A stretch of 64,000 bases of DNA from Actinotalea soli (GTDB lineage Bacteria; Actinomycetota; Actinomycetes; Actinomycetales; Cellulomonadaceae): the NCBI RefSeq assembly GCF_017565425.1, contig NZ_JAGEMK010000005.1:62001-126000 (forward strand), read 5' to 3'. The notes beneath the pieces are model-generated. The model did no database searches. It was not told the DNA's origin and saw only the letters and a program-made list of their open reading frames with translations. Each line of letters opens with the position of its first letter. The stretch's first letter is position 1. Of the stretch, positions 44,484 through 60,629 are shown piece after piece. Both the position numbers and the translations under genes were made by a program.

Positions 44484-44550
44484 GGTCTGTACTCCTCAGT
44501 TCTCGAAGATCTGCGGGCCGCTCGGTCTCACCGGACGGCCCTGCACGGGG

Positions 44551-45555
44551 TCAGGACGGCTCGTCCTCGGTGTACTCGCTGTCGTCGTAGTACGCCGCGG
44601 CGGTGGGGTCGAAGTCGATCGGGCTGTCCTTGAGGGACAGTCCGAGACCCTGGAGCTTCTCCTTGACCTCGGTGATCGACTTCGCACCGAAGTTGCGGAT
44701 GTCCAGCAGGTCCGCCTCGCTGCGGGCCACGAGCTCGCCCACGGCGTGGATGCCCTCGCGCTTGAGGCAGTTGTACGAACGGATCGTGAGCTGGAGCTCC
44801 TCGATCGGCAGGGCCAGGTCGGCCGCGAGCGCGGCGTCCGTCGGCGACGGGCCGATCTCGATGCCCTCGGCCTCGACGTTGAGCTCACGGGCCAGGCCGA
44901 AGAGCTCGACGAGCGTCTTGCCGGCCGAGGCCAGCGCGTCGCGGGGCGAGATGGCCGACTTGGTCTCGACGTCGACGATCAGCTTGTCGAAGTCCGTGCG
45001 CTGCTCGACACGGGTCGCCTCGACCTTGTAGGTCACCTTGAGCACGGGCGAGTAGATCGAGTCGACCGGGATGCGGCCGATCTCGGAGTCGTAGGCCTTG
45101 TTCTGCGAGGCCGAGACGTAGCCGCGACCGCGCTCGACCGTGAGCTCGATCTCGAGCTTGCCCTTGCCGTTGAGGGTGGCGATGTGCAGGTTCGGGTTGT
45201 GGATCTCGACGCCGGTGGGCGGGGTGATGTCCGCGGCGGTGACCGTCCCGGGGCCCTGCTTGCGCAGGTACATCACGACGGGCTCGTCGTTCTCCGAGGA
45301 GACGACGAGCTCCTTGATGTTCAGGATGACCTCGGTGACGTCCTCCTTGGCACCGGTCACGGTGCTGAACTCGTGCAGCACGCCGTCGATGCGGATCGAG
45401 GTGACCGCGGCCCCCGGGATCGAGGACAGGAGGGTGCGGCGCAGGGAGTTGCCGAGGGTGTAGCCGAAGCCAGGCTCGAGCGGCTCGATGACGAACCGCG
45501 AACGGCTGTCGGTGAGGACCTCTTCGGTCAGGGTGGGGCGCTGTGCGATGAGCAC
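44551..45555 (-). CDS. rpoA: RNA polymerase alpha subunit
   Basis: 334 residues: N-terminal assembly domain ([37 protein letters not shown]) and alpha-CTD (LELSVRSYNCLK-type [35 protein letters not shown]) joined by a short linker; acidic tail. GTG at 45555 ([13 protein letters not shown]). Confidence 0.98.
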
Positions 45556-45679
45556 GGTGGTGTTCCTCTCAGTGTGCGTCCGCCATATGACGCATCACGC
45601 TGTGCGGCCTGCTGGATCTCGGTCCACCCGGCAGGGTCGAGATGAGGGGTCTGCGGGAGCCGGGCTCACCAGCAGACCT

Positions 45680-45720
45680 GCTCAGGGCCGGACGAGGGGT
45701 GCCCTCGTCCGGCCCTGAGC
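45680..45720 (-). terminator. Strong hairpin between rpsK and rpoA
   Basis: Perfect 18-bp stem (45680-45697 with 45703-45720, GCTCAGGGCCGGACGAGG) with a 5-nt loop, 4 nt after the rpsK stop. It is as good as the terminal hairpins in this window, so it likely terminates or attenuates transcription at the place where rpsD sits in many bacteria. A separate rpoA promoter in 45556-45679 is expected but not clear. Confidence 0.75.
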
Positions 45721-45724
45721 CACG

Positions 45725-46126
45725 TCAGACGCGACGGCGCTTGGGCGGACGGCAGCCGTTGTGCGCCTGGGGCGTCACGTCCTGGATCGAGCCGACCTCG
45801 AGGCCGGCCGCGGTGAGCGAGCGGATCGCGGTCTCACGGCCCGAGCCGGGGCCCTTGACGAAGACGTCGACCTTCTTCATGCCGTGCTCCTGCGCGCGGC
45901 GCGCGGCGGCCTCGGCGGCGAGCTGGGCGGCGAAGGGCGTCGACTTGCGCGAGCCCTTGAAGCCGACCTGGCCCGAGGAGGCCCACGCGATCACGGCCCC
46001 GGCAGGGTCGGTGATCGAGACGATCGTGTTGTTGAACGTGCTCTTGATGTGGGCCTGGCCCACGGCGATGTTCTTCTTCTCCTTGCGACGCGGCTTGCGC
46101 GACGCGGTGCGGGTCTTGGGAGGCAT
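45725..46126 (-). CDS. rpsK: 30S ribosomal protein S11
   Basis: 133 residues: [39 protein letters not shown], and [17 protein letters not shown] at the end. No rpsD follows. Confidence 0.98.
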
Positions 46127-46206
46127 AGCGGTTCTTCTCCTGGTCTGAGGTCGTCGGACCGTCCGGGTGCACGGCGAGCCGTGCTGTCCACGCAGACGGA
46201 CTGCTA

Positions 46207-46584
46207 CTACTTGCGGGCCTTCTTCTTGCCGGCCACGGTGCGCTTGGGGCCCTTGCGGGTACGCGCGTTGGTCTTGGTCCGCTGACCACGGACGGGCAGC
46301 CCGCGGCGGTGCCGGATGCCCTCGTAGCTGCCGATCTCGACCTTGCGGCGGATGTCCGCGGCGACCTCACGGCGGAGGTCACCCTCGAGCTTGAAGTTGC
46401 CCTCGAGGTGGTCGCGGAGGGCGACCAGCTCGGCGTCACCGAGGTCCTTGACGCGAAGGTCGGGGCTGATCCCCGTGGCGGCCAGCGTCTGCTGGGCGCG
46501 GGTACGGCCGACGCCGTAGATGTAGGTGAGCGCTACCTCGAGCCGCTTGTCGCGGGGGAGGTCGACGCCGACGAGACGTGCCAT
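46207..46584 (-). CDS. rpsM: 30S ribosomal protein S13
   Basis: 125 residues from [52 protein letters not shown] and a basic tail. The 198-nt gap to rpmJ shows only GC-rich sequence with a short CCCGCC/GGCGGG dyad. Confidence 0.98.
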
Positions 46585-46782
46585 GTGCCAGGTGCTCCTG
46601 TACTACGTCGGAGGTCTTCCGCACGGTCTTCCCGCTGGTGCGGGCCCCGGCCTCCGACCGGGGGTTGCCTCACGCCTGAGGGCGATGAGCGCTGACCGTG
46701 CGCTGATGACTGCCCGCCGAGGCGGGCCGTCGGGTCGATCTGTCGACCTGGTGCACCCCGGGGTGAGCCGGGACGCCGGGGC

Positions 46783-46896
46783 TCAGCCCTGGCGCTGCTT
46801 GTGCCGCAGGTTGTCGCAGATGACCATCACGCGACCGTGCCGGCGGATCACCTTGCACTTGTCGCAGATCTTCTTGACGCTGGGCTTGACCTTCAT
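46783..46896 (-). CDS. rpmJ: 50S ribosomal protein L36
   Basis: 37 residues beginning [19 protein letters not shown]. The zinc ligands C11, C14, C27 and H32 are present, so this is the zinc-containing (C+) form rather than a zinc-independent paralogue. Short gene read directly from the sequence. Confidence 0.97.
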
Positions 46897-46977
46897 TGCT
46901 CGTTCCTCCGCCGCCGCACGCGCACTAGCGTGCGACGGGCGACAGTGTCGTCGGGGCGCCCGGAGGGCGCCGGCGGA

Positions 46978-47199
46978 CTACTTGTAGCGGTAGACGATCC
47001 GGCCACGGGACAGGTCGTACGGGCTCAGCTCAACAACCACCCGGTCCTCGGGGAGGATCCGGATGTAGTGCTGACGCATCTTGCCCGAGATGTGGGCGAG
47101 CACCCTGTGGCCGTTCGCCAGCTCCACGCGAAACATCGCGTTCGGCAGGGCCTCGACCACGCTGCCCTCGATCTCGATGACACCGTCCTTCTTCGCCAT
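46978..47199 (-). CDS. infA: Translation initiation factor IF-1
   Basis: 73 residues, [20 protein letters not shown] to IVYRYK, the usual length of this OB-fold factor. ATG at 47199 has GGAGG 4-5 nt upstream. Normally just downstream of map; here ~9.8 kb away because of the inserted regulator and surface-protein genes. Confidence 0.98.
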
Positions 47200-47334
47200 A
47201 TCCTCCGCTAACTCTCTGGGACTCCTGCAGGACCGCGCCGCGGACGACCGGCCGGAGCCGTTCGACGAGACGTGGGGTGACGTGTGCTGCACCGGACGGA
47301 CCGGACATGACCGAAGTCGCACACCCAACGGACC

Positions 47335-47340
47335 ATCCTA
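47335..47340 (-). promoter_or_regulatory. Candidate -10 box of infA operon
   Basis: TAGGAT on the minus strand, 15-20 nt after the surface-protein stop, with a weak TTCCGA 17 nt upstream inside its last codons. It would give infA its own ~125-nt leader. No terminator hairpin was seen between the surface-protein gene and this box. Confidence 0.4.
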
Positions 47341-47354
47341 CGCCATCCTCAGCC

Positions 47355-50300
47355 TCATCGGAAACGGCCCCGGATCACCCCCGAGCGGGCCGTGAGGACC
47401 GCTCCGGCGGTCACGAGGAGCGCTGCCGTGAGGACGAGGCCGAGCATCCCGCCCGGCCCGGTCCAGGCCAGCCGACCGGCCGGGGCCGAGGCCTCGGTCT
47501 GCGCGCCGGCACCAGGGCGCTCGTCCCCGGAACCCGTCCCGCCGGGCACCTCCTCGTCCGTCCCGCCGCCGCCGTCGGGGGACCCGTCGCTGCCCGAGGT
47601 GTCGACGACGAAGCCGAAGTCCAGGGTCAGGTCCTCCTCTCCCCCGACGAGGGTCCGCGACCAGGCACGCCAGGTCGAGGAGTCGATCGCACGGTCGTCC
47701 CCCGCGTCGCTGCGCGTCGGGCTCAGGCCTGCGAGCGCCCGCGCCGAGGCCGCGGTGTCGATCGTGACGCGGTAGCGACCCGGCGGCAGCCCCTCGAACA
47801 GGTAGTCGCCGTTGGCGTCGGTGGTCCGGGGACCGACCAGCGCCCCCGTCACGTCGCGGACCTGCGTGCCGTCCGGGTTCCGCACGACCAGGACGACCCC
47901 GGCGATGCCGGGCTCACCCGGCCCCTGCAGGCCGTCGCCGTCGGTGTCGAACCAGACCCGGTCGCCGACCCGCACGGGCAGCTCGACCAGACCCGCGTCG
48001 CGCGTCGGGTCGAGGTGGTCCGCGGCGATCCCGTCCGACGGCGCCGCAGGACGCTGGAACGGGTTGGCCGCCCCGGGGCCGAGGTCGAAGACCGCGGTCC
48101 TGCTCACCCTGGGGGCCTCGGTCACGGCAGCGTCGGAGTCGGTGTGGCCGTCCGTCCCCTGCAGCGGCTGGGTGAAGCGGTAGCGCGCGGCCTGGTCCTC
48201 GTCGAGGACGAAGCCGATCGTCCAGCTCCCCGCGGGGACCGTGTCGAACAGGTACCGCCCGTCGGCACCGGTCGTCGTGACGGCCCAGGCCTCGGTCTCA
48301 CCCTCGCGGAAGAGCAGGACCTGCACGCCCTCGACGCCGGGCTCCCCCGCGCCCTGCCGGCCGTCACGGTCGCGGTCGAGCCAGACCCTGTCGCCCACGG
48401 CGTAGGTCGGGGTCGCGTAGCGGATGCCGGCCTTGAGCGGCACCGAGGTCAGGGGCAGCGCACTGCCCTGGGGCTGGACGCGGAAGGCGAACGAGTTCCA
48501 GGCGTCGGTCCCGTTGGCCGCACCGCCCTCCGGGGCGAGCATGGACCACTCGACCCCCAGGCTCTGGCCCGTGAGCCAGAGGTTGCCGGGTGCCAGGTCG
48601 ACGACGAACCGGAAGCCTGTCACCTGCGCGGCCGCAGCCGGAGCCAGGTCGGCCGTGACCTCGGTCCACGTCCCGGGGACGGGGTCGAAGGCGGTGGACC
48701 CGGTGGTCTGACCCGCGCGGTGCGGCTCGGTCGTCACCCACACCGTGAGCTCGGCACCGGGGTGCGCGGCCGACGTCGCGTCGAGCACCGGCAGCACGCC
48801 GTCCCACCGAGGGGTCCAGGCGCTCCCGCGCGATCCCGTCGTCAGCGGCGAGTAGTCGCCCGGGGTCGGCAGCATGTCGATGATCTCGAGGCGAGGCGTC
48901 GGTGCCGAGGCCAGGCTGGTGACCTCGACCTTCCAGTCGATCGTCCCGCCCGCGAGCACCTCGGCCGAGCACGGGAAGCGGAACCAGGTCGCGTCGGCCC
49001 CGGGGCCCCGGGGCGCGCAGGTGGCGGACGGGTCGACGGTGTGGACCGCTCCCCGACCCGTGCTCACCCACTTCTGCGAGACGAAGGTGTCCGCACCACC
49101 CAGCACGAGGGCGGCCGAGCTCCTGGTGCACGTCTCCGTGCCGGGGTCGTAGGTGGACGGCGCCGCGCACGAGGAGGCCGATCCCGGGTCGGACGAGTTC
49201 CCCGAGACGGGGCGGCCGGTCGCGGTCACGGACGCCTGGTTGACGACCTGGATGGTCGACAGCTGCTGCGAGAGCCGCAGGCTCAGGTCGATGGTGACGG
49301 TCTGCCCCGGCGCGAGGCGCGCGTCCTCGGGCCAGGTGAAGGTCACCGTCCGGGCCGTCGTGTCGTGCGTGACCACCGGCAGCCCGAGCTGGTCGGGGCC
49401 CGGGGAGACCGCGACCGCCCAGGTCGAGGAGTCGACGAAGTCGAGGGACTCGTCCGCGGGCAGGTGGTCGACGACCACCAGACCCAGGACGTCCGCCCCC
49501 GTGGCGACCGGGGCACCGTTGGCCACGGTGATCGTGTAGTCGACCATGTCCCCCGGGGCGTAGCCGCCCGAGGGAGCCGCCTGCTTGTCCATCGACAGCT
49601 GGGCGCGGCCGGCCCGGACCTCGAGGGTGTCGGTGTGCTCGGTCCGCGTCCCGGAGGTCACGCCCGTCCGGTAGGCCTGACCGGTGACCACGTTCGTCAC
49701 GCGGCCCGTCACCGTCTCCCCCGGGTTGGTCGCGGACTCGTCGGCCCAGTCGGCCGGCGCACCCACGGCGCTCGGCAGTCCCCCGCTCAGCAGGGCAGGG
49801 CGCAGCCGGCCCGCGAGGACCACGACACCCAGGTCGGTGCCCGGGCTCAGGATCAGCTCGCCGTCGGTGTCGACCATCGTCACGCGCACCGCGATGACGT
49901 CGGACCAGGCTGCCCCGGCGGTGTCCTGCCCCAGGACGAGCTCCCCCGGACCGGACCGTACGTCCGCCTCGACCCAGTTCAGCGCCCCCGAGTACTCCCC
50001 GGCGGTCGTGACGGTGAGGCCCTCGTCCCGCAGGACGACCTCCAGACGCGCCTCCTCGGCCCCGCCCACCAGGGCGTCCAGCCGGGCGCCGGTCAGTCCC
50101 ACCGCGTTGTAGAAGCGCGGATCGGCGTCGACCAGCTCGAGGCTCTCGGCGGCGCTGTTGCCGAAGCTCTGGACGTCGAGGCGCACCTCGAGGTCATGGT
50201 CGGCGTCACGGTGCACGGTCGCCCGGTCGATGCTCTTCGTCACGAAGGCCTTCACCTCGGCGTCGGCGATCGTCAGGGTGTCCTGCGCCGTCGCGGAGGC

Positions 50301-53300
50301 CGGGTCCATCGCGCAGTCCGGCGTGGCAGTCGTGCCGTCGTCGCCGTCGTTCTCGGCCACGCACACCCGCTGGTCACGCACCTCTGCTCGGACCTGGTTG
50401 TCGATGGCGAGCCCCGGCCCGGGCGCGACGCCGGTCACCCGGTGCTCCGCGCGGAGCTGCGTCACGAGCTCGAGACCCACCTGGGCCGTGAGCGACCGCG
50501 GGATGCGGCCCTCGTACTCGACCGTGATGCCGACGACGTCGGCGAGCTGCTCGGTCGACATCGCCAGGAGCTCGTCCCGGGTGACCTGGCGGCTCACGAC
50601 GTCGTCGGTCGCGGGGACGTGCTCGTGCAGCTGCACCGTCAGCCCCGTCGCGCCGGGGACGTCGCCCACGGGGGTGAGTCCCACGACGTCGGTCACGTCG
50701 AACCAGCCGAACGGCGCGCCCTCGGAGACGAGGTCGTCCAGGTCGGTGAGGGCCGGCTCGTGCAGGGTCAGGAGGTCGACCGGCACGGGGCTCGCGTTGC
50801 GGCCCGTCACGGTGAGGGTCGCCGTCGGCCACACCGGCGCGTCGGCGTCGACGGGCAACGGCAGCTCGCGGACCTCGGAGTTGTCCGCCCCGCCCGCGGA
50901 GTTGTCCGCCGCGCGCCGCCAGTCCTTGGTGGTGGCGGCCGCGAGGACAGCAGGGGTGATGTCCACGGTCCGGTCCTCGACGTGACCGACCGGCCCGCCC
51001 AGGCGCGTCCCGTCCCCGGCGACCTCGGCGTCGTTGACGACCCTGCCCGGCTCCCCCGGGACGTTGTACTCGAGGGCGTCGTTGATCACCGTGCCGTCGG
51101 CCCGCGAGACGTCGCGCAGCGACACCGCGAGGACGATCCCCCGCGCGGGATGGACCGAGCTCGCGACCTCGCCGGTCACCAGGCTCGGGGCGAGCGAGGC
51201 CCGCCAGTCACCCTGCGCCGCGAGGGCGCCGACGACGGCGGCGCGCTCGACGTCGGAGAGCGGCGAGTAGACGAGCCGGACCCCTCCCGCGACCTCCCGC
51301 TCGGCGGGACTCAGGTCGATCCGAGGCATCACGACCCAGTCGTTGCCGGGCCCTGCAGCTGCACCCGCGTACGGGACGGCGGCCGCCCCGACCGGCTTCC
51401 AGCTCGCGTCGGTGGTGTCGAAGTACTCGACCGCGGTGATCTGGTCGAACACGAGGTACGGGTCGTAGGCCCCCGTCCCGGCGGCGGGCCCGGAGGTGAT
51501 CCGTCCTACGGCGTCCAGGTCGAAGCTGTCCCAGAAGCTGCTGCTCGCCCCCGTGGCGGGGTCGCCCGCGGTGAGGTCGTTGCCGTCCGTCACCGTGACC
51601 GAGCCGTGGCCGGTCCCCCGCGTGCCCCAGGTGAGGCGCGCGGCGAGCTGCCCCCGACCGCCCTCGGTGACGTCGCCGGCGATCCTCTTCACCAGGGCGG
51701 CGGGGCCGCCGGCGCCCGCGTCGTAGGCCTCGACCTCGTCGCAGGCCGGCCCGCTGCGGTCGGAGTACACCTGGCCGCCGTACTCGACCGAGCCGACGGC
51801 GTGCGCGCAGTTGACCAGCAGCTCACCGGGAGCGACCGCCGCGCCCGAGGTGGGCGACGGCCGCACCGCGAAGGTCACGAGGGCCTGCACGCGGCTGGAT
51901 CCCTCGAAGCCCGCGGCCCGACGGTGCTCGACCCGCAGCCCGGTCCACGCCGAGGTGTCGCCGAGGGCGACGTCGGTGGTGTCCGTGTAGGTGCCGTGCA
52001 CGTTCCAGTCGCCGGCCGCGTCGCGGAAGGAGACGGTCGCCTCGTCCCCGGCCGCGACCTGCAGGTCGATCGAGGTCGGAGCCATGACGGCCCACCAGCG
52101 CGGTGAGGCGTCGGCGCTCTCCTCGATGATCAGCGAGGTCGGGTTCGTGTTGCCCGGCACCGAGGTGGCCTGGAGCACGGCCAGCACGGTCGAGCCTGGC
52201 GCGGTCGAGACGTACCCCTGCGGGATCCGCTTGGTGATCTCGGCCCCCACGCTCGGAGCCTCGACCCCGAGGTCGGCCCGCGAGACGGGGCGGTTGCCGC
52301 TGTCCGGCGTGCGGGGCGCGACCCCGGAGACCTCGCCGCCGATCGACGTCGTGGCGAGGACGTGGTTCGCGTACACGCCCGGCTCTGCGTCCGCGCCCGG
52401 GGTGAGCAGGTACGGGAGCGAGGCCCGCGCACCGGTCGGGATCGGGTCACCGCCGCGGTCCACGAAGGTCGCGGTCAGGCCGGTGACGGCCGCCCAGGAC
52501 CCGATGCTCTGGGGGGCGGTGAGCGCGCCCAGCCCCGGCAGCAGATCACCGGGGACGAGGGTCACCGTCGCTGTGCCGGCCGCCGAGGTCACGGTGAGCT
52601 CGAGCTCCTCCGCGTCGCTCGGCCAGACCAGGCCGGTGCCGTTCGGCCCCGACGCCGGGTCGCCGTCGACGAACCCGTCGCCGAACCCCGCGAAGACGAG
52701 GCCGGAGTCGGCGAACATGGCGCCGTCGATGTCCCCGAGGCCGAGGGCCGGCGGGTTGGCGTCGAGGTCGCCCTGGGCGGGGCGCTCGACCAGGCTGAGG
52801 GAGTCGACGCCCTGACGGGTCCAGTTGGTCCCCGTGATCGTCGCGACGGCGTACGAGCCGACGGGCACCTCGGTCAGGGCATCCCCCGACCCCGGCGCCG
52901 TGTACCGCTTCGTCGAGCTCGCGTACGGGCGCGGGTCCAGGATCTCGGCGAGGGCGGTGTCCTGGGAGGTGCCCGGCGCCTCCCCCGTGATGCCGGAGGT
53001 GGCCACGGTCCGTGCGGTGTTCTCGATCCTCAGCACCCCGAAGCTGTCCGACGGGCCACCGCCGGAGTCGAAGTCCACCGTGCCGTGACGGGCGAGGACG
53101 GACCCGGCGTCGTCCCCCCACTGCTCGGTGCTCAGCTCCAGCCCTGCCGCGGCCCCGGTGGCGATGTGGGCACCCTCCGGCGCGGCGAAGACCGCGCGCA
53201 GCCCGGTCACGTCCCGCGGGGACGCCAGGGCGGCGAGCCACGCGTTCGCCTCGGCCAGGTCGGCCAGCGCGGGAGAGGTCGCCTGCTCGACGCCGTCGGC

Positions 53301-54218
53301 CCACGTGGTCAGGACCAGGGAGGTGGCGCCCGCAGGCCACTGGGTGATCTCGGCCCCGGTCAGCGCGACGAGGTTGAAGGCCGCAGCGCCGGCGGGCACC
53401 GCCGTCGGGTCGGCCGGCTCGGTGATCGTCAGGGTCCGCGTCGGCTCGCCCGCGTTCGTCCCGAGGATCGATGCGGTGTCGGCCGTGCTCGCCCCCTGGC
53501 CCGACAACCAGGAGCCCTGGGCCCAGGACTTCGCGGTCTCCGTCGACAGCACGGGCACGAAGGTGGTCGTCACGCTGATGCCTGCGACGGGGCCGCTGCC
53601 GGTCTCGTCCTCGGGGGTCACGACCACGGTGCCGGTCTGCTCCCCCCCGCCCACCGGGGGGCGGACCACGGCGCGCAGCAGGAGGTTGCCGGTGGTGCCG
53701 CTCACCAGACCCGCGGTGCCCGCGACCTCGTCGGCGAACCGGATGCGGATCGCGGCGACGTCCGCCAGGACGCCGCTGCCGGCCGGGACCTCCACGCCCC
53801 CGGCGTCGAGGTGCGTCACCGTGTAGGCCCCCGGGGACGTGGCGCTCGGCGTGAGCCAGGCCTCCAGGACGAGGTCCTCGAGGCCCAGGGTGAACGCTGC
53901 GCCCAGGCAGCCGTCGGCGCCGTCGGCCGGGCAGGTGTAGGACAGCGCGAACTGCTGCGCGTCGCGCGCGCGGTCGCTGTCGAGGGTGTAGACGCCGTCC
54001 TCGCCGGTGAGCCCGGGCGCAGGGATCATGCCGCTCGCCGTGAGCTGCAACCGGGCTGCCGGGTCCGCGGCCGCGGGAGCCGCGACACCCACCGTCGCCA
54101 GGCCCATCGTCACGACCGCGACGAGGAGGGCGGCGAGCCCGCGGGCCGCCCCACGCCTCGAGTCGCGTCGGGCACGGGAGAACGGCAGCAGAGCAGCGCG
54201 GGTCATCGTCACGTCCAT
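47355..54218 (-). CDS. Giant modular, sortase-anchored surface protein
   Basis: 2287 residues, secreted and probably wall-anchored. Basic n-region and hydrophobic core give a signal peptide with likely cleavage after A51 (APAAA|D). Eight successive modules of ~170-255 residues each begin with a Lys at about 229, 437, 663, 844, 1098, 1328, 1545 and 1716; the one at 1545 is a recognisable DUF11 domain (GDMVDYTITVANG). Two SdrD B-like (Cna-B) domains begin at ~1937 and ~2081 (VGDRVWLDRDRDG, VGDRVWFDTDGDG, Ca-binding-like). A Gly/Asp/Glu linker precedes LAWTG (2250-2254), a membrane helix and an Arg-rich tail: an LAXTG sortase-E-type signal. Only 12 lysines in total. Likely an adhesin or fibre; ligand unknown. 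No SD at 54218. Confidence 0.88.
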   Translation of the reverse strand: MDVTMTRAALLPFSRARRDSRRGAARGLAALLVAVVTMGLATVGVAAPAAADPAARLQLTASGMIPAPGLTGEDGVYTLDSDRARDAQQFALSYTCPADGADGCLGAAFTLGLEDLVLEAWLTPSATSPGAYTVTHLDAGGVEVPAGSGVLADVAAIRIRFADEVAGTAGLVSGTTGNLLLRAVVRPPVGGGEQTGTVVVTPEDETGSGPVAGISVTTTFVPVLSTETAKSWAQGSWLSGQGASTADTASILGTNAGEPTRTLTITEPADPTAVPAGAAAFNLVALTGAEITQWPAGATSLVLTTWADGVEQATSPALADLAEANAWLAALASPRDVTGLRAVFAAPEGAHIATGAAAGLELSTEQWGDDAGSVLARHGTVDFDSGGGPSDSFGVLRIENTARTVATSGITGEAPGTSQDTALAEILDPRPYASSTKRYTAPGSGDALTEVPVGSYAVATITGTNWTRQGVDSLSLVERPAQGDLDANPPALGLGDIDGAMFADSGLVFAGFGDGFVDGDPASGPNGTGLVWPSDAEELELTVTSAAGTATVTLVPGDLLPGLGALTAPQSIGSWAAVTGLTATFVDRGGDPIPTGARASLPYLLTPGADAEPGVYANHVLATTSIGGEVSGVAPRTPDSGNRPVSRADLGVEAPSVGAEITKRIPQGYVSTAPGSTVLAVLQATSVPGNTNPTSLIIEESADASPRWWAVMAPTSIDLQVAAGDEATVSFRDAAGDWNVHGTYTDTTDVALGDTSAWTGLRVEHRRAAGFEGSSRVQALVTFAVRPSPTSGAAVAPGELLVNCAHAVGSVEYGGQVYSDRSGPACDEVEAYDAGAGGPAALVKRIAGDVTEGGRGQLAARLTWGTRGTGHGSVTVTDGNDLTAGDPATGASSSFWDSFDLDAVGRITSGPAAGTGAYDPYLVFDQITAVEYFDTTDASWKPVGAAAVPYAGAAAGPGNDWVVMPRIDLSPAEREVAGGVRLVYSPLSDVERAAVVGALAAQGDWRASLAPSLVTGEVASSVHPARGIVLAVSLRDVSRADGTVINDALEYNVPGEPGRVVNDAEVAGDGTRLGGPVGHVEDRTVDITPAVLAAATTKDWRRAADNSAGGADNSEVRELPLPVDADAPVWPTATLTVTGRNASPVPVDLLTLHEPALTDLDDLVSEGAPFGWFDVTDVVGLTPVGDVPGATGLTVQLHEHVPATDDVVSRQVTRDELLAMSTEQLADVVGITVEYEGRIPRSLTAQVGLELVTQLRAEHRVTGVAPGPGLAIDNQVRAEVRDQRVCVAENDGDDGTTATPDCAMDPASATAQDTLTIADAEVKAFVTKSIDRATVHRDADHDLEVRLDVQSFGNSAAESLELVDADPRFYNAVGLTGARLDALVGGAEEARLEVVLRDEGLTVTTAGEYSGALNWVEADVRSGPGELVLGQDTAGAAWSDVIAVRVTMVDTDGELILSPGTDLGVVVLAGRLRPALLSGGLPSAVGAPADWADESATNPGETVTGRVTNVVTGQAYRTGVTSGTRTEHTDTLEVRAGRAQLSMDKQAAPSGGYAPGDMVDYTITVANGAPVATGADVLGLVVVDHLPADESLDFVDSSTWAVAVSPGPDQLGLPVVTHDTTARTVTFTWPEDARLAPGQTVTIDLSLRLSQQLSTIQVVNQASVTATGRPVSGNSSDPGSASSCAAPSTYDPGTETCTRSSAALVLGGADTFVSQKWVSTGRGAVHTVDPSATCAPRGPGADATWFRFPCSAEVLAGGTIDWKVEVTSLASAPTPRLEIIDMLPTPGDYSPLTTGSRGSAWTPRWDGVLPVLDATSAAHPGAELTVWVTTEPHRAGQTTGSTAFDPVPGTWTEVTADLAPAAAAQVTGFRFVVDLAPGNLWLTGQSLGVEWSMLAPEGGAANGTDAWNSFAFRVQPQGSALPLTSVPLKAGIRYATPTYAVGDRVWLDRDRDGRQGAGEPGVEGVQVLLFREGETEAWAVTTTGADGRYLFDTVPAGSWTIGFVLDEDQAARYRFTQPLQGTDGHTDSDAAVTEAPRVSRTAVFDLGPGAANPFQRPAAPSDGIAADHLDPTRDAGLVELPVRVGDRVWFDTDGDGLQGPGEPGIAGVVLVVRNPDGTQVRDVTGALVGPRTTDANGDYLFEGLPPGRYRVTIDTAASARALAGLSPTRSDAGDDRAIDSSTWRAWSRTLVGGEEDLTLDFGFVVDTSGSDGSPDGGGGTDEEVPGGTGSGDERPGAGAQTEASAPAGRLAWTGPGGMLGLVLTAALLVTAGAVLTARSGVIRGRFR

Positions 54219-54401
54219 CAGGAGTCGGGGTCACGTCCAGGGCCCCGACCGACGGCCGGGTGCTCCTCGTGACTCCTCGTCGCGCCGTGGGGGAAGCACG
54301 AGATGAAAGCCGAGGTGAACCGAGGAGGCGGCCTGGTGCGCCCGGACGCCGAGCCACGGCCACCGTCCTCGGACCGAGGGCGGTACCCCCGGTGGGTCGG
54401 C

Positions 54402-56960
54402 TCAGGACGCGTCGGAGGTGAGGGAGAACCCGTGGGCGAGGGCCGCAGCGAGGGTCTCGGACCGCGTCCTCGTGCCGAGCTTGCGGTAGATGCTGCGCAC
54501 CTGCGTCTTGACGGTGTTGATCGACACCACCAGGGTCTGGGCGATCTCCTGGTGAGAAGCGGTGCGGGCGAGCTCGATCAGGACCAGCCGCTCGCGCTCG
54601 CTGAGCTGGACCACCGCGAGGTCGGGCATCGCCTCGGGGGCCCGCACCACCCAGTCGGGCAGCGGGACGTCCCCCGCCGCTCGTGCCAGGGCGAGGACGT
54701 CCGCCCGAGGCGCGGTGGCGATGCCTCGCCAGCACTCGTCACGGCGCGCCCGTCCCACGGCGTCGGCGAAGTGCTCCACGCCGCCCCGGGGATCGAGTCG
54801 ACGTTCCGCCACGGCGAGGGCGACCAGCAGGTCCACCCGGCGGAACCCGTAGGCCTCAGGGGACACCAGCCCGGCGGCCGCCTCGACCTTGGCTGTCTCG
54901 GGGTCCCCCACCGCCAGGGCGAGACGCGCGCGCGCAGCCCGGAGCAGGTGCCCCTCCCCTGCCCCGTCGAGTAGCTCCTGGGCGTGGGCCGACCGTCCCA
55001 GCCGGAGGTCGAGGTCCACCGCCACCGACGTCAGCAGCCCGTGGGCCAAGGAGCCCACCTGGCCTGTCTCGGGCTCCGCCATGGCGTGGTTCGCGAGCTC
55101 GGCCGCGACCTCGCGGGGACGCGAGCCGTAGACCGCAAGATGGGCGCGGACGTAGGCCTCGACGATCCACCCGGGGTGTGCACCCTCCAGGGACGTGAAA
55201 CCCGCCAGCGCCACGTCCGCCTCGGCCAGCTCCCCCGCCTCGCTCGCCAGCAGTGCCTCGACCAGGGGGTCCCACTCCTCGACGAACTGCCGCAGGAACC
55301 CCTCCGCCCGCGGGAGGCCGGACGCCCGGTCGAGCCACCGCCGAGCCCGGGCCCGGTCTCCGTGCAGGGCGTGGACCAGGGCGGCGTTGGTCGCGCCGTT
55401 GCGGGCGACGTAGGACGTGTCCGTGGACCGGCCGGTCCAGTACCCCTCCTGGAAGTCGCGCACCGCCTGGGTGAGGTCCCCCGCCAGCAGGCTCACCAGG
55501 CCCCACTGGACGTACAGCAACGACCGCAGGTCCGGGGCGAGCGCGACCCAGCCCTCGGGCTCGTCGCGGGCGAGGGCCCGCTGCTGGTCGACGACAGGCA
55601 CCGCGAGCAGGGGCTGGCGCGCGGAACGGAGTGCGACGAGGAGCGCGACGCCCTCGGTCAGCGTGTCCTGCATGGGCCGGTCCACGAGGCCGGCCCCGAG
55701 CGTGCCCGCGAAGGCCTCGGCGCCGACCGCGTCGGAGGGGAACTCGACGAGCAGGGTCCGGACGAGCGCGATCGACGGGCGCGCCAGGAGCAGCTCCTCA
55801 GGCACCCCACCGATCCAGGTGCCCAGACGGTTGCCGTGGTGCACCGCGAGGCTCGGCCAGTGCAGGTCGAGCACGGTCACCATCGTCTCGTGGTCCTCGG
55901 CCAGCCAGGCGGCCTCGGCTGCGGCGTCCGGCAGGCCCTGCTCCAGGTACCACCGCGCGGCCCACCGCAGCAGGGCGACCTCCTCCGCACCGAGCGTGGC
56001 GTCCGCTCGCGCTCCCTGGAGCGCGTCCCGGACGCCCGGGGCCTGCTCGAGCGGGGCGTCCGCGTCCGGGCCGACCGCGACGCACAGACCCGAGTCGACC
56101 AGCTGGCCGACCACGTCGTTCTCCTGGTCGAGGCCTGCCTCCGCCGCGAGGGCGACCACGATGCCACGGTGCAGGCGCGGGAGGAGCGCGAGCTGCGACG
56201 CCAGCCTCCGCAGCGGGACCGGCTCGAGCGTGCTGAGGACGTACCGCACGAAGTCCCGTGCCGCGACGCCCCCGGGGTCCCGCACCAGCGCGACCGTCGG
56301 TCCGGTCCACCCGTCGTAGGTGCGGCGGATCTCCTCGGCGTCGGCGAGGCCCGCGGCGTCCTCGTCGGGGTCGCCCTCGGGGCCACCGGGCAGCGCTCGC
56401 GCCGTGCCCTGCAGGGCGGACGGCCCCTTCTGCAGGGTGCGCACCTCCGCCGCCGAGAGGGCGAGGTCGGGGGCTGTGAGAACCGTCGCGGCGTGCTCGA
56501 CCCGACCGAGCACCTCGACCGGGCGCAGCACCTCGGTCGAGACGAGCACACGAGTCGCCGGGCACCGGCGCAGCAGGGTCATCAGGTCCCGGTCGAGGGT
56601 GTCGTCCGCGAGCAGCTCGGCACGTTCCACGACCAGGACGGCGCGGACGGTCTGGCGCTCGAGGACGTCGAGGACCTGCCGCGCGACGCTGCGCCCTGGG
56701 TCGCTCTCGACGCCGAGCCGGGACAGGACCTCGGTCCACACCTCGGCCGCCTCGGCGTGCCCCGGGTCGACCTCGACGCGGAGCACCCGGCGCTCACGGG
56801 ACCGGCACGCCGCGACCCACTGGTCGACCAGGACCCTCTTGCCCGAGCCCCTCGGACCGCGGAGCACCGTGAGCCGCGACCCGTCCTCGACCCGCGCCAG
56901 GAGGCCGGCCCGCTCGATCAGTTCGTCGTCCGATCCGACCTTCCCGGCCTCGCGCGGCAC
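54402..56960 (-). CDS. Large LuxR (LAL/MalT-like) transcriptional regulator
   Basis: 852 residues. N-terminal STAND-type ATPase region with P-loop-like GPRGSGKRVLVDQW (~35-48; Arg where Ser/Thr normally follows Lys, so nucleotide binding may be weak), a long helical TPR-like middle (~330-770), and a C-terminal LuxR helix-turn-helix (LSERERLVLIELARTASHQE, INTVKTQVRSIYRKLGTRTR). GTG at 56960 with GGAGGAGG upstream, 46 nt after map, so it can be co-transcribed with secY-adk-map. The giant surface-protein gene starts 183 nt downstream and is its probable target; that 183-nt gap shows no clear promoter. Confidence 0.88.
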   Translation of the reverse strand: MPREAGKVGSDDELIERAGLLARVEDGSRLTVLRGPRGSGKRVLVDQWVAACRSRERRVLRVEVDPGHAEAAEVWTEVLSRLGVESDPGRSVARQVLDVLERQTVRAVLVVERAELLADDTLDRDLMTLLRRCPATRVLVSTEVLRPVEVLGRVEHAATVLTAPDLALSAAEVRTLQKGPSALQGTARALPGGPEGDPDEDAAGLADAEEIRRTYDGWTGPTVALVRDPGGVAARDFVRYVLSTLEPVPLRRLASQLALLPRLHRGIVVALAAEAGLDQENDVVGQLVDSGLCVAVGPDADAPLEQAPGVRDALQGARADATLGAEEVALLRWAARWYLEQGLPDAAAEAAWLAEDHETMVTVLDLHWPSLAVHHGNRLGTWIGGVPEELLLARPSIALVRTLLVEFPSDAVGAEAFAGTLGAGLVDRPMQDTLTEGVALLVALRSARQPLLAVPVVDQQRALARDEPEGWVALAPDLRSLLYVQWGLVSLLAGDLTQAVRDFQEGYWTGRSTDTSYVARNGATNAALVHALHGDRARARRWLDRASGLPRAEGFLRQFVEEWDPLVEALLASEAGELAEADVALAGFTSLEGAHPGWIVEAYVRAHLAVYGSRPREVAAELANHAMAEPETGQVGSLAHGLLTSVAVDLDLRLGRSAHAQELLDGAGEGHLLRAARARLALAVGDPETAKVEAAAGLVSPEAYGFRRVDLLVALAVAERRLDPRGGVEHFADAVGRARRDECWRGIATAPRADVLALARAAGDVPLPDWVVRAPEAMPDLAVVQLSERERLVLIELARTASHQEIAQTLVVSINTVKTQVRSIYRKLGTRTRSETLAAALAHGFSLTSDAS

Positions 56961-57006
56961 GGCGCCTCCTCCTCGATCCTGGCTGCCGCAGCAGTCCGGT
57001 GCGTCC

Positions 57007-57831
57007 CTAGGGCTCCCACGGCGCGATGGTCACGCCGAGGGCGGCGAGCCGCTCGGCGCCGCCGTCCGGGGCGGTCAGGACCCACACGCCCTCGGGCCCG
57101 ATGGCCACGGTGTGCTCCCAGTGCGCGGCACGCTGACCGTCCATGGTCACGACCGTCCAGTCGTCCTCGAGCACCTGCGTGGCCCGCGATCCCCGGGTCA
57201 GCATCGGCTCGACGGCCACGCAGAGCCCGGCCCGGAGCCGCGGGCCCTTGTCGCGGGTCCGGTAGTTGAGCACCTCCGGTGGCTGGTGCATGGCGCTGCC
57301 GATCCCGTGTCCGACGTACTCCTGCACGATCCCGTAGCCCGTGCCGGAGGCCGCCACCACGTCCTCGACGGCATCGCCCACGACGCCGAGCCGGTCGCCC
57401 TTGGCCAGGGCCGCGATCCCGGCCCACATGGCCTGCTCGGTGGCGTCGCTCAGTGCGAGGTCACCGGGATCGGCGTCGGGGAGGACGGTGGTGAAGGCTG
57501 CGTCGCCGTGCCACCCGTCCACGACCGCGCCGCAGTCGACCGAGACCACGTCGCCGGGCCCGAGCACCCGCGGACCGGGGATGCCGTGCACGATCTCGTC
57601 GTTGACCGAGACGCAGATCGACGCCGGGTAGCCGTGGTACCCGAGGAAGGAGGACGTCGCCCCGGCCTCGGCGAGGGTCGCGGCGGCGACGTCGTCGAGG
57701 TCGGCCGTCGTCACGCCGGGCCGCATCGCCTCGCGGACGGTGCGGTGGATGTCGGCCACGACGAGGCCCGCACGACGCATGGTCTGCACCTGCGCGGCCG
57801 TCTTGTACTCGATCTTCTCGCGTCCGAACAT
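57007..57831 (-). CDS. map: Methionine aminopeptidase type I
   Basis: 274 residues from MFGREKIEYK. Two-metal site: D in VSVDCGAVVDGWHGDAAF, H in YVGHGIGSAMHQPPEV, E in VAVEPMLT and WEHTVAIG. ATG at 57831, 13 nt after the adk stop. Cleaves initiator Met after deformylation (a def gene is also in the window). Confidence 0.97.
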   Translation of the reverse strand: MFGREKIEYKTAAQVQTMRRAGLVVADIHRTVREAMRPGVTTADLDDVAAATLAEAGATSSFLGYHGYPASICVSVNDEIVHGIPGPRVLGPGDVVSVDCGAVVDGWHGDAAFTTVLPDADPGDLALSDATEQAMWAGIAALAKGDRLGVVGDAVEDVVAASGTGYGIVQEYVGHGIGSAMHQPPEVLNYRTRDKGPRLRAGLCVAVEPMLTRGSRATQVLEDDWTVVTMDGQRAAHWEHTVAIGPEGVWVLTAPDGGAERLAALGVTIAPWEP

Positions 57832-57844
57832 CGGCGGAGAGCCC

Positions 57845-58420
57845 TCAGGCCGCAGGGGTCGACGCGGCGACCACGCGGGCCGTGACCTCGTCGATGGTGC
57901 CGATCCCGTCGACGCGGACGAGGAGGCCACGCTCGGCGTAGGCCGAGGTGAGCGGAGCGGTCTGCTCGGCGTAGATGTCCAGCCGCCGGGCGATCGCCTC
58001 CTCGGTGTCGTCCTCACGGCCCTCGGTCTCGGCCCGCTGGCGCAGCCGGGTGAGGAGCTCGGACCGGTCGGCGGTCAGCTCGACCACGCGGTCGAGGGCC
58101 ACCCCGAGGCTGGTGAGGATGTCGTCGAGCTCGACGACCTGCGCGGCGTTGCGCGGGTACCCGTCGAGGATGAAGCCGCCGGCCGCGTCGGACTGACCGA
58201 GCCGGTCCCGCACCATCGCGTTGGTGACCTCGTCGGGCACGAGGTCTCCCTTGGAGGTGTACGACTGCGCGAGGACACCGAGCTCGGTGCCGCCCTTGAT
58301 GTTGGCGCGGAAGATGTCGCCGGTCGAGATCGCCGGGACGCCCAGCCGCTCGGCGAGCCGCTGGGCCTGGGTGCCCTTGCCGGCTCCCTGCGGGCCCATG
58401 ATCACCAGACGTGAGCTCAC
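57845..58420 (-). CDS. adk: Adenylate kinase
   Basis: 191 residues: P-loop GPQGAGKGTQAQRLAERL, ISTGDIFRANI, ILDGYPRNAAQ. Short-LID form without zinc cysteines, as in other Actinobacteria. GTG at 58420 overlaps the secY stop (GTGA). Confidence 0.97.
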   Translation of the reverse strand: MSSRLVIMGPQGAGKGTQAQRLAERLGVPAISTGDIFRANIKGGTELGVLAQSYTSKGDLVPDEVTNAMVRDRLGQSDAAGGFILDGYPRNAAQVVELDDILTSLGVALDRVVELTADRSELLTRLRQRAETEGREDDTEEAIARRLDIYAEQTAPLTSAYAERGLLVRVDGIGTIDEVTARVVAASTPAA

Positions 58421-59715
58421 CGCAGGAACCCTTCGTAGTGCCGCTGCTGGAGCTGAGACTCGATCTGCTTGACGGTCTCGAGGCCCACGCCGACGACGAT
58501 GAGGATGGACGCCCCGCCGAACGGGATGTTCGCGCCGACCCCGAGCCAGATGAACACGAGCAGCGGGATGAGGGCGACGAAGGCGAGGTAGACCGACCCG
58601 GGAGCGGTGATGCGGGAGATCACGTAGTCGAGGTACTCGGCCGTGGGGCGCCCTGCCCGGATGCCCGGGATGAAGCCGCCGTACTTCTTCATGTTGTCTG
58701 CGACCTCGTCCGGGTTGAACGTGATCGCTGTGTAGAAGTACGCGAAGAAGATGATGAGGACCAGGTAGAGCGCGATGTGCAGCGGGGCCTCGGGAGCGGC
58801 GACGTAGGTCGACAACCAGATCACCCACCCCGCGGTCTGGTCGCCGAACTGAGCGGCGAGACCCGGGATCGCGAGCAACGAGGAGGCGAAGATGACCGGG
58901 ATGATCCCCGCCATGTTGATCTTGATCGGGATGTAGGTGCTCGACCCGCCGTACATCTTCCGGCCGACCATCCGCTTGGCGTACTGCACGGGGATGCGTC
59001 GCTGGGACTGCTCGACGAAGACCACGAGGGCGATCACGAGCAGGATCACGAGCATCACGATCACGAAGTTCGTGAGGCCGTTCTCGCCACCGGCGATCGA
59101 CCACATCGCACCGGGGAAGGTGGCCGCGATCGAGGTGAAGATCAGGAGCGACATGCCGTTGCCGATGCCCCGCTCGCTGATGAGCTCCCCGAGCCACATG
59201 ATCAGCGCGGTGCCGGCGGTCATCGTGATGACCATGAGGACGATCGTGGTGACCGAGTCGTCCGGGATGAGCGGCACAGGGCACTCGGGGAAGAGCAGGT
59301 TGTTGCGGGCGACCGTGATGACGGTGGTCGACTGCAGGATCGCCAGCCCGATCGTCATGTACCGCGTGTACTGGGTGAGCTGGGCGGTGCCCTGCTGGCC
59401 CTCCTTGTGGAGGGCCTCGAAGCGCGGGATGACCACGCGCAGCAGCTGGGTGATGATGCTCGCCGTGATGTACGGCATGATCCCCAGCGCGAACACCGAG
59501 AGCTGGAGCAGCGCCCCACCGCTGAACAGGTTCACCAGACCGAGCAGGTCGTTGGTGCCGTCCATCGACGCGACGCACTGCTGCACGTTGCCGTAGTCCA
59601 CACCCGGGGTCGGGATGAAGGACCCCACCCGGAAGATCACCATGATGGAGATCGTGAACAGCAGCTTGCGCCGCAGGTCGGGCGTCCGGAACGCCCGCAC
59701 GAATGCGCTGAGCAC
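58417..59715 (-). CDS. secY: Preprotein translocase subunit SecY
   Basis: 432 residues with ten hydrophobic segments, the core of the SecYEG channel. LRRKLLFTISIMVIFRVGSF start, PYITASIITQLL, GIIPVIFASS and TFFSYFYT-like FFAYFYTAITFNPDEVADN. GTG at 59715 with GGAGG. Opens the secY-adk-map group after a hairpin. Confidence 0.98.
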   Translation of the reverse strand: MLSAFVRAFRTPDLRRKLLFTISIMVIFRVGSFIPTPGVDYGNVQQCVASMDGTNDLLGLVNLFSGGALLQLSVFALGIMPYITASIITQLLRVVIPRFEALHKEGQQGTAQLTQYTRYMTIGLAILQSTTVITVARNNLLFPECPVPLIPDDSVTTIVLMVITMTAGTALIMWLGELISERGIGNGMSLLIFTSIAATFPGAMWSIAGGENGLTNFVIVMLVILLVIALVVFVEQSQRRIPVQYAKRMVGRKMYGGSSTYIPIKINMAGIIPVIFASSLLAIPGLAAQFGDQTAGWVIWLSTYVAAPEAPLHIALYLVLIIFFAYFYTAITFNPDEVADNMKKYGGFIPGIRAGRPTAEYLDYVISRITAPGSVYLAFVALIPLLVFIWLGVGANIPFGGASILIVVGVGLETVKQIESQLQQRHYEGFLR

Positions 59716-59801
59716 TAGTCCTCCTGCTCCGCCCGAGAGCGGTGTGTCGTCATGCCGGTGCCCCGGCGTACGGGTTGATCACCCGCGGGAGGCCGCTTGG
59801 A

Positions 59802-59807
59802 ACCCTA
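59802..59807 (-). promoter_or_regulatory. Candidate -10 box of secY-adk-map
   Basis: TAGGGT on the minus strand, between the rplO hairpin and secY, in the only AT-richer patch of the gap. No clear -35. Would leave a leader of ~80 nt. Confidence 0.35.
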
Positions 59808-59831
59808 ACCGACGTCCGACCCGGGACGGCA

Positions 59832-59866
59832 CAGGGGCCGGGTCGCGCGTCGCGTCCCGGCCCCTG
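59832..59866 (-). terminator. Hairpin between rplO and secY
   Basis: 11-bp stem (59832-59842 with 59856-59866, CAGGGGCCGGG) and an inner CGCG/CGCG pairing, 7 nt after the rplO stop. Likely terminates or attenuates the ribosomal part of the spc operon. Confidence 0.7.
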
Positions 59867-59873
59867 GTCCATC

Positions 59874-60629
59874 TCAGTCCTGGTCGACGGACCCGCCAGC
59901 GGCGAGGATCTTCTCCTTGGCCGAGGCCGAGACCGCCTGCACCTGGACGTTGAGCTTGACGCTCACGTCGCCGCTGCCGAGGACCTTGACCGGCGAGCCC
60001 TTGCGGACCGCGCCCTTGGCCACGAGGTCCTCGACCGTCACGTCGCCACCCTGCGGGTACAGCGAGGCGAGGCTGTCCAGGTTGACCACCTGGTACTCCA
60101 CGCGGAACGGGTTCCTGAACCCACGGAGCTTGGGCAGCCGCATGTGCAGCGGCATCTGCCCGCCCTCGAACCGCTCAGGCACCTGGTAACGGGCCTTGGT
60201 GCCCTTGGTGCCTCGTCCGGCGGTCTTGCCCTTGGACGCCTCACCACGACCCACACGGGTCTTGGCGGTCTTCGCGCCGGGTGCAGGCCGCAGGTGGTGC
60301 AGCTTGAGCGTGCCGCCGGCACCTTCGGTGGTCGACGACCCCTTGGTGGCCGAGGACTTCGTCGTCGATGCCTTCGCCGCGGGGGCCTTCGACGCCGACG
60401 CCGTGGGCTCGGAGGCCTTGGCTGCGGACGTGCTCGGCTTCTCGGCCTTGGCGGCCGAGCCCTCGGTCTTGGCCTTGCTGGCCGTCCCGGCGGACTTCGT
60501 GGTGCTGCTCTTGGCCTTGGCGGGCTTGTCGGCCGCCGCGGTCTTCGCTGCAGCCGTCTTGCTCGCGGGCTTCTTGGTGGGAGCCGCGGCCGAGGTGTCC
60601 TCGGACGGGTCCTTGGTGCTGTCTGCCAT
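59874..60629 (-). CDS. rplO: 50S ribosomal protein L15 with long N-terminal extension
   Basis: 251 residues. The L15 core begins at ~105 ([23 protein letters not shown]) and ends [12 protein letters not shown]. The first ~104 residues are a low-complexity Ala/Lys/Ser/Thr tail resembling histone H1 or HupB tails. There is no Met/Val start at the normal position, and the ATG at 60629 sits 2 nt from the rpmD stop, so the tail is probably translated. Usual L15 is about 147 residues. Confidence 0.95.

Follow-up and report, generated by a model that had tools for sequence, protein, structure and literature searches.

A probable cassette of a LAL-type regulator and a giant surface protein gene between map and infA in Actinotalea soli

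A stretch of 64,000 nucleotides from the Actinotalea soli genome (contig NZ_JAGEMK010000005.1, positions 62,001 to 126,000; hereafter the window) carries on its minus strand the gene order secY, adk, map, a LAL-type LuxR regulator, a giant surface protein, infA, rpmJ and rpsM. We consider it probable that the regulator and the surface protein gene form a two-gene cassette, in which the LAL protein controls the giant sortase-anchored protein through a direct-repeat operator, and that this cassette entered the map-infA gap (the slot) in the ancestor of two species. Genomes and loci of relatives are cited below by our own G and L numbers.

A lineage-specific insertion upstream of infA

The distance between map and infA is about 9.8 kb (map stop codon at 57009-57007, infA start at 47199), and the gene coordinates agree with the first-pass annotation, which had placed a LAL LuxR regulator and a surface protein gene between them, all in one orientation. 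The same annotation regarded the locus as an insertion, and comparison with relatives bears this out: the map-infA gap is 155-306 nucleotides long in 17 of 18 same-genus genomes, and the 9.8-kb insert is found only in G005, the sister species Actinotalea sp. C106, so that by this comparison the insertion is lineage-specific. The flanking map gene was followed by tblastn in these 18 relatives, with an identity of 77-96% except in G010 and G014 (68%). As the G005 assembly shows the same locus structure, the arrangement is not an artefact of a single assembly. The ratio of non-synonymous to synonymous substitution (dN/dS) between the window and G005 is 0.25 for the LAL gene and 0.23 for the surface gene (0.014 for secY and 0.056 for map), and therefore both inserted genes are under purifying selection.

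Throughout the genus, infA is preceded by TAGGAT and then by a CGTTGG start region. In the window TAGGAT occupies 47340-47335, and the element as a whole (47340-47325) lies past the surface-gene stop codon, while a tentative -35 sequence, GTTTCC at 47365-47360, falls within the last codons of the surface gene. We collected 100 infA-upstream loci from 119 relatives, most of them about 16 kb long and one a 1.8-kb stub, and 61 of 99 loci had the pattern TANNNT-N1-5-CGTYGG ahead of infA, as opposed to 0.8 expected from mononucleotide shuffles. This promoter-like element, which the first-pass annotation had not pointed out, is kept in slots that bear a LAL gene (L038, L066, L068, L073, L085, L090, L099, L110, L111 and L112) and in those with an LPXTG-type protein alone (L065, L069, L072, L083 and L098); it was not found in L106. 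Several families of the order have this pattern ahead of infA, and its start region is unusually conserved.

It could be assumed that secY-adk-map-LAL-surface-infA is one read-through unit, so that the level of adhesin would follow growth rate, with no more than trimming by the regulator. The co-orientation of all genes is consistent with this idea, and so are the 46-nucleotide gap between map and the LAL gene with its Shine-Dalgarno sequence, the co-orientation with map and infA of slot LALs in other genera, and the lack of terminator-like sites on the strand (none on the minus strand of 44500-60500 and one on the plus strand, with a mean of 1.8 in shuffles, in a scan that is weak at this G+C). 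On the other hand, the conserved promoter-like element of infA follows the surface gene, a leader of 183 nucleotides with a conserved repeat separates the LAL gene from the surface gene, and related LAL-giant pairs (G054, G071, G036, G056 and G155) sit away from the map-infA slot. We regard a single read-through operon as unlikely. Because the conserved element follows the insert, infA need not depend on read-through, and such dependence is disfavoured, contrary to the transcription continuing into infA that the first-pass annotation had envisaged. Growth-rate coupling via secY-adk-map, which it had also proposed, could still apply to the regulator, which, given the short gap, is probably co-transcribed with these genes. 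The surface gene, however, is more likely transcribed from its own promoter, because its leader holds a conserved candidate operator.

The two proteins and their recurrent pairing

The regulator gene starts with GTG, 46 nucleotides after map, and has GAGGAGG directly upstream. Its product carries an N-terminal nucleotide-binding domain (Pfam AAA_22, 32.4 bits, cut-off 27) with a Walker A motif at residue 35, and a C-terminal LuxR-type helix-turn-helix (HTH) domain (Pfam GerE, 37.5 bits, cut-off 23.5, residues 785-836), and by this combination it is a LAL regulator. No Pfam match above cut-off was found in its middle region, and no Pfam match to a SARP domain. Nor is it a MalT equivalog, as it scores 40.2 bits with NCBIfam PRK04841, whose cut-off is 537, and this in the HTH part only.

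The surface protein consists of a hydrophobic N-terminal signal, a long beta-rich region, two SdrD_B stretches (Pfam, 5.8e-43) and a linker rich in Gly, Pro and Asp, followed at residue 2250 by a motif-based LAWTG sorting signal with a hydrophobic stretch and a basic tail. By these sequence features it is of the sortase-anchored kind (N-terminal signal, L(P/A)XTG, hydrophobic stretch, basic tail), although the sorting-signal profile PF00746 gave no hit at E <= 0.01 in its own genome. Matches to DUF11/DUF7507 in the beta-rich region stay below cut-off. The full-length Sdr families of NCBIfam are not matched (SdrC 80.7 vs 1700 bits, SdrD 74.8 vs 2500), the SdrD_B stretches alone being recognised. 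The predicted fold of residues 1121-1700 is a weak model with a mean predicted local distance difference test score (pLDDT) of 64, and the PDB entries listed as matches are made up of beta/Ig-like domains in strings, with a template modelling score of at most about 0.3; we claim no specific fold for this part. The genome has two sortase matches, one of class E (NF033747, 263 bits vs cut-off 160) and one nearest to class F but below cut-off (131 vs 166). Class E sortases recognise LAXTG according to the portion of PMC5148588 used here, and the LAWTG signal together with the genomic class E sortase fits a class E substrate, for which anchoring is predicted. The Pfam matches, the Walker A motif and the LAWTG signal uphold the first-pass description of a sortase-type giant beside a LAL LuxR regulator.

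The window LAL falls, in a tree of 31 rows, within a set of seven LALs (support 96/96), each of which adjoins, or is one gene away from, a giant LPXTG/LAXTG protein, with six giants in all. The same seven group in a 121-row tree (Shimodaira-Hasegawa-like approximate likelihood ratio test 93), and seven rows added later extend the clade to 10. The 121-row tree was made from 131 LAL hits, of which 125 covered enough of the model, after four rows from three duplicate loci had been dropped. It holds 24 LALs with an LPXTG-type open reading frame (ORF) of at least 800 amino acids within 3 kb (21 classed as giant and three as slot plus giant), where tandem LALs sharing one giant (L134 and L254) are counted twice; the remainder comprises 19 LALs classed as slot only, five with a smaller LPXTG-type ORF and 73 with none. 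A 27-row LAL clade of Rhodococcus and kin has no LPXTG-type ORF of at least 250 amino acids in its loci. A more distant version of the arrangement occurs in Nesterenkonia ebinurensis (L254:7604-20261), where two LAL genes are followed by a 2,389-amino-acid LAITG protein.

These trees also bear on the idea that the window LAL is a resident slot regulator, controlling infA or the ribosomal operon, and that the giant gene is a later guest. Such an arrangement is conceivable in view of giant-free LALs directly ahead of infA in g19 (Sanguibacter), g25 and Georgenia-type genomes. However, the window LAL clusters with LALs that accompany giants at other loci, apart from those slot LALs, and the 31-row, 121-row and enlarged trees alike disfavour a resident origin, which we consider very improbable.

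The giants themselves are related as well. Among 29 giants compared, the closest to that of the window after G005 is that of G054, which is LAL-linked (35% identity over 1,539 amino acids), followed by those of G071, G056 and G036. Homologous giants accompanied by related LALs at different loci are consistent with joint movement of the two genes as one unit. Once the repeat motif described below had been fixed, another 20 LAL regions were retrieved, and among them G155 has a LAL sister to that of G054 (100/100) and a 2,622-amino-acid LALTG protein homologous to the window giant (33% over 1,820 amino acids). The latter is the only new top match to a giant profile (441 bits, the next giant having 309); six of the seven best giants served to build the profile, so that their own high scores are by construction.

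Could the two genes be neighbours by mere chance, docked in a map-infA gap that tolerates insertions and without a regulatory link? The slot of other families does hold unrelated genes, as judged by eye (a phosphotransferase-system-like cluster in L113, transporter genes in L119). Yet an LPXTG-type ORF of at least 150 amino acids was found in 11 of 20 unlinked LAL regions and in one of 20 control regions; the former came from among the higher-scoring hits and include two short regions (6.9 and 10.6 kb) and two overlapping ones, the latter lie at fixed positions in eight of the genomes, and the LPXTG test was a home-made expression applied to crude gene calls. These adjacency counts, the homology of the paired giants and the repeat that they share, also in the new G155 pair, disfavour pure neighbour coincidence, and we hold it to be quite improbable.

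A direct repeat as the candidate operator

The leaders of the clade giants share a direct repeat with a period of 12 bp, TCACC-N7-TCAYS, which reads TCACCTCGGCTTTCATC in the window and G005, TCACCCCGGGAATCACC in G054, TCACCCCGGATTTCACG in G071, TCACCCCGGCATTCACC in G036 and TCACCCCGGGATTCACC in G056. It was met again in the leader of the G155 giant (TCACCCCGCGAATCACC), after the motif had been set, and also as TCACCCGGAGACTCACC in the leader of G034, whose LAL belongs to another clade. The window has a single match to TCACC-N7-TCAYC, at 54302-54318, with 0.30 expected; it is identical in G005, where the leader around it is nearly identical too, while the first part of the regulator-surface gap has diverged.

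The repeat occurs at period 12 and at most 135 nucleotides from the ORF start in eight of 23 LAL-linked giants, including all six of the clade, and a looser scan of the 23 found 10 with a match, against 1.2 expected in Markov-resampled sequence. TCAYC-N7-TCAYS is present within 150 nucleotides upstream of 22 of 2,147 called genes, six of which are LAL-linked giants (16 of 2,141 among the others, two of them being LAL genes, L145 and L146). All seven clade LALs with a GerE score of 33-47 bits (window, G005, G054, the first of G071, G036, G056 and G155) have both a giant and the repeat. We thus read the direct repeat as a candidate site for the LAL, that is, its putative operator. The gaps between slot LALs and infA have no consistent shared repeat site. 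In two g25 genomes TCACC-N7-TCACC stands about 127 nucleotides ahead of the slot-LAL start (L282:11768-11784 and L283:11639-11655), which may point to autoregulation.

The first-pass annotation had suggested that the regulator gates the adhesin. Comparative support for this comes from the recurrent pairing, the shared repeat inside 54219-54401 and the leader conserved in the sister species. There are, however, several observations which weigh against the cassette reading. The 10-row clade has a support of only 93/89, with no resolved place for the window pair inside it, and its giants represent about three lineages (window/G005, G054/G155 and G071/G036/G056), the new case G155 being a sister of the already used G054. 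An opposite-strand gene of 332-339 amino acids lies between LAL and giant in G036 and G056. No LPXTG-type ORF of at least 250 amino acids is present in the 19.4-kb regions around the clade LALs of G256 and G258, and these two LALs form one subclade with the second G071 LAL, with GerE at 11.5 bits (second G071 LAL), 25.9 bits (G256) and none (G258). As to the repeat, it was first found by eye and then counted; 15 of the 23 LAL-linked giants, all outside the clade and other than those of G034 and G101, have no period-12 repeat, and it precedes none of the seven LPXTG genes in the later regions L285-L290 and L297, which belong to other LAL groups. Finally, the genome of the window itself has seven occurrences of TCACCYCGGNNNTCAYS, and the sequence is present in 15 of the 16 genomes searched (79 matches listed). 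The repeat is thus not unique genome-wide; with TCACCYCGGNNNTCAYS so frequent, sequence alone shows no single target, and it is the position in the leader that carries the signal. Restricting the spacer to N followed by two A/T leaves the six clade sites as the only fits among these 79 listed matches, but the restriction was drawn up with those sites in view. The direct repeat is absent from the G256 region, and that of G258 has six scattered ones.

The weak-HTH subclade has long frames of 866-889 amino acids (L278:7264-9879, L279:8851-11451, L134:6684-9353); one of its LALs adjoins a giant next to an intact LAL, and two are without a giant nearby. HTH decay as a mark of giant loss was rejected, since the second G071 LAL, kin of those of G256 and G258, adjoins a giant despite its weak HTH, and the decay is therefore a trait of the subclade and not evidence on giant loss. 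Within the clade the AAA domain is above cut-off only in the window and in the first G071 LAL, and the LAL ORFs of G054 and G155 are short (674 and 423 amino acids); the ATPase part is therefore not uniform in the clade.

Taken as a working model, the probable cassette would have been inserted after the map stop codon and ahead of the infA promoter, in an ancestor shared by the two sister Actinotalea species, in the direction of transcription and leaving the infA promoter in place. The regulator would be made from the secY-adk-map transcript and, on a signal (ligand), would multimerise with ATP and bind the repeat ahead of the surface gene, thereby activating or, less likely, repressing it. 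The exported protein, presumably an adhesin, would then be anchored at LAWTG by the class E sortase. What the sequences themselves show is the gene content, the insertion, the promoter-like element kept ahead of infA, the repeated occurrence of the pair and the conserved repeat; co-transcription, DNA binding, activation, the signal and adhesion are predictions of the model.

Table 1. Features of the map-infA locus, in window coordinates
Feature	Position	Strand	Remarks
map (methionine aminopeptidase), left flank of the slot	57007..57845	-	Map sequence inside ORF 57007-58017; exact start not set
LAL-type LuxR regulator, 852 amino acids	54402..56960	-	Pfam AAA_22 and GerE above cut-off
Candidate LAL operator TCACCTCGGCTTTCATC, direct repeat of 12-bp period	54302..54318	-	83 nucleotides ahead of surface-gene ATG
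Surface-gene leader (footprint)	54219..54330	-	Limits by eye; window vs G005 pairwise alignment
Giant surface protein, 2,287 amino acids (6,864 nucleotides)	47355..54218	-	Signal, SdrD_B, LAWTG
infA promoter-like element	47325..47365	-	Genus-wide conservation; motif counts upstream of infA
infA (73 amino acids), right flank of the slot, then rpmJ and rpsM	46978..47199	-	

The slot in relatives and the relation to known systems

Actinotalea belongs to the Cellulomonadaceae, Micrococcales (NCBI). Of the 72 relatives in family f1, 67 were included in the survey of the slot; no infA hit was obtained for G039 and G043, G019 is the 1.8-kb stub, and G052 and G068 were left out as infA is within 1 kb of the contig start. 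The slot holds a LAL in seven of the 67 loci (L038, L066, L068, L073, L085, L090 and L099) and an LPXTG/LAXTG-type protein in seven (L038, L065, L066, L069, L072, L083 and L098); two loci carry both and 12 carry at least one of them. In G034 (L066), from another genus, the order is adk, LAL, a 1,473-amino-acid LPSTG protein and infA. The map-infA gap is occupied by LALs of other clades, with no giant, in L068, L085, L099, L073, L090, L110, L111, L112, L205, L226, L228 (where map is outside the stored stretch), L238 and L280-L283. In Georgenia and f13 genomes infA is preceded by two LALs in tandem, with no giant surface gene; the f13 genomes G084, G101 and G116 were chosen partly for their LAL hits. 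In three other genera (g3, g7 and g14) the gap contains a small membrane-like ORF of 133-177 amino acids, ending C-terminally in a G(P/L)PGVxYDL-type sequence (L056, L074, L078, L082, L093 and L097).

LAL regulators and sortase-anchored giants are known kinds of proteins. Like MalT and other LAL/STAND LuxR regulators, the window LAL combines an N-terminal NTPase with a C-terminal GerE HTH, and TPR_MalT matches below cut-off are seen in three relatives (L134, L279 and L284). On the other strand the half-sites of the repeat read GGTGA/GATGA, which is close to the MalT box, GGA[TG]GA as it appears in a partial text of PMC9628970. MalT multimerises and then binds its boxes cooperatively, as stated in the excerpt of PMC4381067 on which we draw. 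The predicted target here is a giant wall-anchored surface protein, in contrast to a sugar regulon or an antibiotic cluster. SARP-LAL regulators of Streptomyces are linked with heptameric direct repeats in the section of PMC5930380 consulted, and a LAL-type regulator with direct repeats is the common point, binding being a prediction in our case; the window LAL differs in having no SARP domain match, and both repeat and target are different. With the MSCRAMM Sdr-type adhesins the window giant shares SdrD_B stretches and a wall-anchor signal, but it has LAWTG instead of LPXTG and a long unannotated N-terminal region. With class E sortase substrates such as chaplins it shares the LAXTG signal and a class E sortase in the genome, differing as a giant multi-domain protein whose anchoring is predicted. 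The listings from full-text searches of one open-access library contained neither an account of a LAL family linked to giant surface proteins and a shared operator nor one of a map-infA insertion slot.

The comparisons describe a highly conserved gene junction which is repeatedly used as an insertion slot while the promoter-like element ahead of infA is kept. The candidate operator and its regulator offer a testable, specific candidate switch for very large actinobacterial surface proteins. A broader and rather doubtful extension would be that dedicated STAND regulators travel with giant wall-anchored proteins as a self-contained cassette, that the map-infA junction is their preferred docking slot in Micrococcales, and that production of the regulator there keeps pace with secretion capacity and adenylate kinase. 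If this were true, a regulator placed behind secY-adk-map would allow a very large secreted protein to be made only when export and energy supply permit, and infA would retain its own promoter.

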